From an uncultured Gordonibacter sp. (GTDB taxonomy: Bacteria; Actinomycetota; Coriobacteriia; Coriobacteriales; Eggerthellaceae): a DNA stretch of 40,162 bases. The stretch's first letter is position 1, and every line of letters starts with the position of its first letter. Below, piece by piece: positions 17,619 to 24,842 of the stretch. The position numbers were made by a program, and so were the translations under genes. The notes under the pieces are model-generated. The model saw only the letters and a list, made by a program, of their open reading frames with translations, was not told the DNA's origin and made no database searches. The stretch covers positions 1-40,162 of the forward strand of contig CAJFVW010000193.1 of the NCBI GenBank assembly GCA_904420575.1. The letters run 5' to 3'.

Positions 17619-17673
17619 TGCGTGTCCAAGCCAGACGCCAGGTTGCCGGTACGGCTTGCGGCGCGAGAAAGAT

Positions 17674-17775
17674 CGCAAATCGGTCATTTTTTGCCATGCG
17701 CATGACCTGGCATGATAGCGCATTTCACCTGTTCAATGAGGCTGTTTGAACATGGCAGAAAATGACCGATTTGCG
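17674..17775. repeat. 25-bp interrupted inverted repeat with nested dyad upstream of maf
   Basis: CGCAAATCGGTCATTTT followed by (T)TGCCATG at 17674-17698 is repeated inverted at 17751-17775, 24 of 25 bases matching, with 52 bp between. Inside the spacer lies a second dyad, TGTTCAA...TTGAACA (about 17730-17752), which abuts the right arm. The arms are AT-richer than the surroundings. It could be a small repeated or mobile element, or a regulatory cruciform; the right arm overlaps the maf -35 region. Confidence 0.65.
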
Positions 17776-17797
17776 GCAATTCCAACTCTGCTACAAT
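17771..17797 (+). promoter_or_regulatory. maf promoter giving a leaderless transcript
   Basis: TACAAT at 17792-17797 is a good -10 box; TTGCGG at 17771-17776 is a weak -35. The -10 box ends eight bases before the maf ATG at 17805 and there is no Shine-Dalgarno site, so transcription probably starts at or one base before the start codon. Confidence 0.5.
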
Positions 17798-23840: not shown

Positions 23841-24842
23841 ATGCCCGAGGACTGCATTTCCAACGTTGACGGGCCATCGTTTCGCCTGCGCGAACTGGCC
23901 GAGGTGTCGTCCACGAACGACGTGGTCAAGCGTGCGCTCGAGGCAGGGGAGCCCGAGGGCTTGGCCGTGCGTGCCTGCAGACAGACCGGCGGCTACGGAC
24001 GCCAAGGGCGCACGTGGGCAAGTCCCGAGGGCGGCCTGTACCTGTCACTGCTGCTGCGCCCTCGGGTGCCGTCTGCGCAGCTTCCCACGTTGAGCCTGGT
24101 GACGGGCTTGGCAGTGCGAGAGGCGGTCGCGGCGGTAGCCGACGGGTCCGCTGCCGAATCCGTGCTCATCAAATGGCCCAACGACGTCGTCGTGCGTCAG
24201 AGCTGCGCGGGAGGGCTTTGCGGCCACAAAACCGCCGAATCCAGACATTTTCAAGGCGCGCCGAACGGCGTCCCTGCCTTTCCGCAAGACCGGCGTGCTT
24301 CCGATCAGGCTCTTTCGTCTGGTGGCTCGGAAGACTCTCGGCATGAAAGCGCTTCGGGGTCAGTAATCGGTGATTCTGTGCCAGATTCGCGCTCCGAACG
24401 TGCTTCGTTTGCGAAGCTGTGCGGCATCTCGTTGGAGGCGCATGCCGGGGGCGTGTGCGTGGGCATTGGCATAAACGTGGTGCCGCCCGACGAGTCCGTC
24501 GACGTGGGAGGCAAGAACCGCCCCGCCTATCTGGCCGACGTGGCGGGCTGGGCGCGCGTCGACGCGCTTGAGGCGATCGGCTCCGTGGCGCGTGCCGTGC
24601 TGGGCGCCTTTGCGCCGCTGTACGCCGTGTGGTGCAGGCAAGGTTTCGCCCCGCTGCTTGAAGAATACGAGGCCCATGCGAGCCTCACGGGAAAGCAGGT
24701 GCGTATCGCCGACCAAGCGGGTTCCGTCCTTTGCGAAGGCACCGTGCGCGGCATCGACGTCCACGGCCGCCTGCTCGTGGAAACCGACCAAGGCGCCATC
24801 GTCCCCGTCTCGTCCGGCGAGGCGCACATTCTGAACAGGTGA
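23841..24842 (+). CDS. birA: Biotin-[acetyl-CoA-carboxylase] ligase without HTH domain, with internal insertion
   Basis: 333 residues from an ATG with AAAGGAGGG. It makes biotinyl-AMP and attaches biotin to carboxyl carrier protein. The biotin loop is Gly-Tyr-Gly-Arg-Gln-Gly-Arg-Thr-Trp, and Lys111-Trp-Pro-Asn-Asp is the active-site segment. The usual next step, a short turn into Gly-Ile-Ser/Leu-Leu-Glu, is broken by 73 extra residues (119-191), after which Leu-Cys-Gly-Ile-Ser-Leu-Glu resumes. There is no N-terminal winged helix, so it is not a repressor of biotin genes. A C-terminal SH3-like domain is present. bioY lies two genes downstream. Confidence 0.88.
   Translation: MPEDCISNVDGPSFRLRELAEVSSTNDVVKRALEAGEPEGLAVRACRQTGGYGRQGRTWASPEGGLYLSLLLRPRVPSAQLPTLSLVTGLAVREAVAAVADGSAAESVLIKWPNDVVVRQSCAGGLCGHKTAESRHFQGAPNGVPAFPQDRRASDQALSSGGSEDSRHESASGSVIGDSVPDSRSERASFAKLCGISLEAHAGGVCVGIGINVVPPDESVDVGGKNRPAYLADVAGWARVDALEAIGSVARAVLGAFAPLYAVWCRQGFAPLLEEYEAHASLTGKQVRIADQAGSVLCEGTVRGIDVHGRLLVETDQGAIVPVSSGEAHILNR
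24195..24413. other. 219-bp lower-GC in-frame insertion within birA
   Basis: Exactly 73 codons separate Asn-Asp-Val-Val-Val from the conserved Lys-Leu-Cys-Gly-Ile-Ser-Leu-Glu. The inserted DNA is poorer in GC (about half in 24361-24420, against about two thirds in the gene flanks). It uses codons such as TCT, AAA, TTT and GTA that are rare in the neighbours, and encodes a polar, Ser/Arg/Gly-rich segment with no predicted fold. It looks like an element or intergenic repeat captured in frame. Confidence 0.55.

Follow-up and report, generated by a model that had tools for sequence, protein, structure and literature searches.

The biotin ligase gene (birA) in the window, by which we mean the whole 40,162-nucleotide stretch of DNA analysed here, contains an in-frame copy of an interspersed repeat specific to its genus. 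Our reading, to which we attach a probability of roughly 0.88, is that this MITE-like repeat was captured in frame by the birA of the ancestor of two species and is translated as a disordered tether.

An expanded loop in the biotin ligase

The gene (23841..24842, plus strand) lies on G000:C193, a contig from a fragmented assembly of an Eggerthellaceae genome, and encodes a biotin--[carboxylase] ligase of 333 aa without an HTH domain, as recognised by Pfam/NCBIfam. The domains Pfam BPL_LplA_LipB and BPL_C and the family TIGR00121 are all matched above their cut-offs, and the protein belongs to the biotin protein ligases by BPL_LplA_LipB with KWPND and the invariant lysine, by BPL_C and by fold. 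It is the only ligase match in its own assembly (E<=0.001). The gene order is folP/K, ligase, MATE-type exporter and bioY, where folP/K and the exporter are identified from their translations only, and bioY lies 1.8 kb downstream of the ligase.

The KWPND motif (24171..24185, plus strand; invariant alignment columns K111-D115) is the last part of the conserved core ahead of a loop that our loop survey finds expanded to 76 aa (24186..24413, plus strand). The first residue past the loop in the alignment of ligases is the invariant Lys192, the K of KLCGIS (24414..24416, plus strand), which aligns with the lysine of the P. horikoshii KIAG motif (phmmer alignment to 1wnl). A preliminary description of this DNA had placed a 219-bp insertion after KWPNDV; the segment is real, but the core resumes at K192 and not, as it had proposed, at GISLE. 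Its statement that the segment is in frame also holds, the loop being stop-free inside a complete ligase ORF, and the unusual composition that it had noticed is borne out: GC is 0.61 in the loop vs 0.67 in the ORF, and at third codon positions the loop has a GC of 0.54 vs 0.82 for the core (0.50 for the repeat element described below).

Outside the Eggerthellaceae this loop is mostly 6 aa, and 6-13 aa in all ligases parsed; none of these distant orthologs carries the segment, whose presence there the preliminary description had named as refuting its proposal. Within the family the loop ranges from 6 to 79 aa, with 152 aa, including masked bases, in Gordonibacter pamelaeae. The loop of the sister species of the same genus, G001, is 79 aa long and clearly related to that of the window. 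Relatives with no detected repeat have loops of 6-49 aa, and one of 73 aa; the long loops without an identifiable repeat are those of G005 (73 aa), L015 (46 aa) and L036 (49 aa). Before the insertion the loop was probably already about 20 aa long. Separately, the ligase ortholog L016 (G011:C31) has an Ala/Gly-rich insertion of ~95 aa on the other side, ahead of KWPND.

A paired-box repeat within the loop

Matches to a box model, R1, together with a pair scan, locate the captured repeat element at 24223..24382 (plus strand). It is 160 bp long, shorter than the 219 bp first delimited, and consists of a variable core between two inverted boxes of ~26 bp: a left box GCCACAAAACCGCCGAATCCAGACATT (24223..24249, plus strand; 13.8 bits, E 0.003, window rank 1) and an inverted right box GGCACAGAATCACCGATTACTGAC, read on the minus strand (24359..24382; 10.2 bits, E 0.043, window rank 2). 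R1 is a sequence-only model of 25 boxes, from which both birA copies were left out. The window copy is degraded and its single-box E-values are modest, and the case for it rests on the pairing of the boxes and on the stronger copy in the sister species. The oriented pair in the window birA scores 46.5 vs a maximum of 21.2 over 200 Markov-simulated windows, and the pair scan found no comparable pair in 13 ligase loci of other genera. The sister species also has a 160-bp copy at the same position in birA, where R1 detects the two boxes with genome-wide E-values of 1.7e-4 and 0.003.

Given how widely the Eggerthellaceae loop varies in length and sequence, and that several long loops have no identifiable repeat, one might regard it as a hypervariable low-complexity coding expansion whose resemblance to a repeat is coincidental. 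We consider this very unlikely, as the boxes of both species match an independent model in the correct inverted orientation and at the spacing of the family, with a pair score that the simulated windows never reach.

The preliminary description had proposed BLASTN as a way to look for copies of the segment. The whole 219 bp finds only itself in its own genome at E<=0.001, the cores having diverged from copy to copy. Against 138 family genomes the whole segment returns itself or short weak matches only, and a literal 31-bp pattern matches nothing except itself. The own-genome search does give weak matches of 24219-24256, which are the recurring box, present once per strand within the segment. 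The idea of a single-copy segment, which BLASTN had suggested, was dropped once the box was recognised.

A repeat family restricted to one genus

With R1, 66 boxes are detected in G001; G000, the assembly of the window, has 21, and six other genomes give 1-5 weak matches apiece. A search pattern written for one of the box types occurs 10 times in G001, 3 times in G000 and once in the other 136 family genomes, with 0 matches for a reversed-pattern control; a pattern for the second box type is similarly distributed, its matches in the G001 birA being partly circular, in that it was written after viewing them. Among the 138 Eggerthellaceae genomes, the family is restricted to this genus. G000 and G001 together hold at least 36 complete elements besides those in birA, of 129-172 bp and nearly all intergenic. 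Element interiors are related within size classes, some in reverse orientation, as expected of copied elements. The proposal of the preliminary description that an intergenic or mobile repeat had been captured inside an essential gene is supported, with oriented box pairs at 36 other places, nearly all non-coding; copies do exist in related genomes, contrary to the outcome by which it was to have been refuted. It is to be qualified in that the element is shorter than it had stated and the insertion in birA is old, the sister species having it at the same place.

Capture within genes was assessed by extending the flanks of each element up to the next stop, with both birA copies as positive controls. 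Only these two passed, the other elements falling outside genes; one further locus, L206, was added after a domain check, and L222, which was borderline, is not counted. L206 (G001:C133:6800-8850, minus strand) is a second in-frame capture: a 129-bp element in the stop-free ORF of a RimI-TsaD fusion, forming residues 300-342 in the linker between the RimI-like GNAT domain and TsaD. Among the frames of the other elements 134/216 are stop-free, from which it follows that in-frame entry is easy. Seven G000 elements or pairs, birA included, match element-bearing loci of G001, so the family is not moving rapidly, and present-day mobility is not evident.

At L238 (G001:C40:4200-13000; with L192, L200 and L211), a stretch of ~8.3 kb bounded by two copies of the element in direct orientation contains an LlaJI-type restriction-modification system, made up of two C5 methylases, an AAA protein, the LlaJI endonuclease and an ORF6N protein. 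The matching place in G000 has a single element. The elements may act as recombination sites.

A helically stepped ladder of element lengths

The outer lengths of the elements fall into classes of 129, 138-140, 149-151, 159-161 and 170-172 bp, the means of which fit a step of 10.55 bp. With 20 representatives of related groups, the groups having been made by hand from a comparison of interiors, the ladder gives R 0.93 (approximate Rayleigh p 3e-8), and 0/5000 random sets were as good. Seven further pairs are arranged back to back at a constant 58-59 bp. The ladder suggests a DNA-bound protein that would pair both boxes on one face of the helix.

Such a ladder, along with the constant distance between back-to-back pairs and the retention of the element in both species at several loci, also raises the alternative that the two boxes together serve to bind a protein, as a looping operator or nucleoid-protein site, selected wherever it occurs, birA included, and that the peptide is a by-product. 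We think this unlikely. The boxes in the window are degraded compared with most copies, the homologous cores within size classes point to the copying of an element, and no binding protein is known. Capture of a copied repeat remains the reading that we prefer.

Elsewhere in the window, at 17672-17777 and just upstream of a Maf-like gene, is an inverted pair of the GCCGCAAATCGGTCATTTTCTGCCATG type, 106 bp long, which matches the box model weakly and whose length is near the ~107.7-bp step of the ladder.

Repeats in the ligase loop of other lineages

In Rubneribacter badeniensis and Gordonibacter sp. An230, the ligase loop contains a 114-bp (38-codon) inverted-box element, the box pattern of which has 14 genomic matches in the former and 7 in the latter. 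The ligase loop of G004, a one-contig genome, contains a TGTCATCCTGAGCG repeat with 90 genomic copies, and that of Eggerthella sinensis contains TGTTTCACGTGAAACA, with 109 genomic copies. Four Eggerthellaceae lineages thus have four different genomic repeats in one ligase loop, a coincidence seen for one gene, in a loop chosen for survey because of the birA finding. G000 and G001 are fragmented MAGs; this kind of loop insertion occurs also in isolates and in the one-contig genome. A single ancestral insertion for the Rubneribacter/Gordonibacter element and that of this genus is not favoured, since the two differ in box sequence, length (114 vs 160), position and frame of the left box. The total loop of the Rubneribacter/Gordonibacter ligases is 76 aa, equal to that of the window.

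The palindrome TGTTTCACGTGAAACA is parS-like and present in 48-126 copies in several Eggerthellaceae genomes (G032, G004, G005 and G028). In this genus there are 7 and 3 copies, each set on a single contig (L250, G000:C145; L249, G001:C21). It represents either multiplied ParB sites or a repeat that resembles parS.

Returning to the paired-box family, we can go a step further, though tentatively: the boxes could be bound by a DNA-pairing protein not yet described, either a transposase or a looping factor, that imposes the helical ladder, and the ligase loop could be a repeated landing site for such elements, either as the place in the enzyme where insertions are most easily tolerated or because an insert there is of some use. 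This is possible, and we would not put it higher.

Age, constraint and structure of the insert

The proteins of the two species align with no gap across 54 element codons, and the element is about 56-74% identical between them, depending on codon position. With the element aligned at one position in both species, the insert predates their split and its frame has been kept. The element has a pN/pS of 0.75 (bootstrap 0.48-1.18) vs 0.46 (0.36-0.59) for the core; the intervals overlap, and the weaker constraint that they suggest for the element sequence is a tendency.

That birA might be a pseudogene or an assembly artefact is a suspicion to which the 86% completeness of its own MAG lends something, as does the greater divergence of birA between species (73% nt, L002 vs L003) than of its neighbours (84-87% nt). 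We give it almost no credence, for the frame is open in two independently assembled species, with no indel in those 54 codons, the core pN/pS is 0.46, and the gene encodes the sole ligase found in the assembly, close to bioY.

The preliminary description had proposed structure prediction to see whether the segment loops out, and the AlphaFold2 model (mabce8aea6c41) predicts it to be disordered, with the core intact. Residues 124-182 (24210..24386, plus strand), which coincide with the element, are predicted to be disordered with pLDDT < 50, while the ligase core is mostly above 90 and matches solved biotin ligases in a fold comparison. In the model the loop connects strands 115-119 and 190-201. 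The insert is probably a floppy loop, and catalysis should be unaffected by it.

Proposed origin

We propose that a 160-bp member of the family would have entered birA in the ancestor that this species shares with its sister, perhaps by transposition or recombination, at a hairpin on the enzyme surface whose loop joins the KWPND strand to the one bearing the invariant lysine. Being stop-free in the birA frame, the element would have left the gene open and would be translated as a disordered tether. With the enzyme core unaffected, the insert would have been tolerated and would have drifted under weak constraint. We expect, then, that the insert is translated and that the enzyme works normally.

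Inspection of the flanks of all copies revealed no consistent target-site duplication. The Y1/RAYT transposase (PF01797) had no match in G000 or G001, which are 84-86% complete, while control genomes were matched, and no autonomous parent element was seen with PF01797 as the transposase sought; an origin from a RAYT/REP system was rejected on the absence of the Y1 transposase from both genomes. A structured RNA was likewise set aside, with 0 Rfam matches at the gathering threshold for five loci and unremarkable folding z-scores for the loop DNAs, as was a phage or plasmid origin, there being no match for the one element tested per collection.

Discussion

Rickettsia palindromic elements (RPEs) are repeats of ~105-150 bp with terminal inverted repeats that have been inserted into conserved protein-coding genes without breaking the frame and are translated; they are found in frame in 19 genes, and one of the enzymes that carry an RPE, Gmk, is active (PMC2229807, PMC10969869). 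The birA element is likewise a repeat in frame in an intact conserved ORF with other copies in the genome, and RPEs are the closest known case by mode and description, our sequence comparison having been with Eggerthellaceae genomes only. RPEs, however, are alphaproteobacterial and occupy many genes, whereas here the repeats are in few genes of an actinobacterial family, and four different repeats share one loop of one enzyme. Nor do we know of a helically stepped length ladder described for RPEs.

The bacterial MITEs ERIC/RU-1, RU-2 and Neisseria Correia/NEMIS span 100-200 bp, end in inverted repeats, lie for the most part between genes and have open frames that are fused to genes (PMC2229807). 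Our element resembles MITEs as a short repeat with inverted ends and several copies per genome, but it lacks a target-site duplication, TA ends were not seen, and its boxes are longer than those of the named families and spaced in ~10.5-bp steps. In size, inverted ends and copy number it answers to what is generally called a MITE, but we withhold filing it as a proven one.

REP/BIME sequences consist of short boxes arranged as inverted pairs, occur in either of two orientations and lie between genes in high copy number. The pairing of inverted boxes is a likeness to REP/BIME with RAYT (PMC3733652), but GTAG/CGTC tags are not apparent here, a RAYT (Y1_Tnp) gene is missing from G000 and G001, and the cores are homologous within size classes. 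A literature search, to which subscription papers were mostly inaccessible, found nothing relevant on Eggerthella repeats.

This is an ordinary enzyme with an unusual insert, the product of an old in-frame capture, and the same loop in sister lineages took unrelated repeats. In-frame capture of selfish or intergenic repeats by conserved genes, known mainly from Rickettsia, is now seen in gut Actinobacteria (Eggerthellaceae), and the 10.55-bp ladder is a handle on the machinery behind these repeats. Four lineages with four repeats in one loop are natural replicates, and with paired enzymes that have and lack the insert, the entry of new peptide segments into essential enzymes becomes testable.
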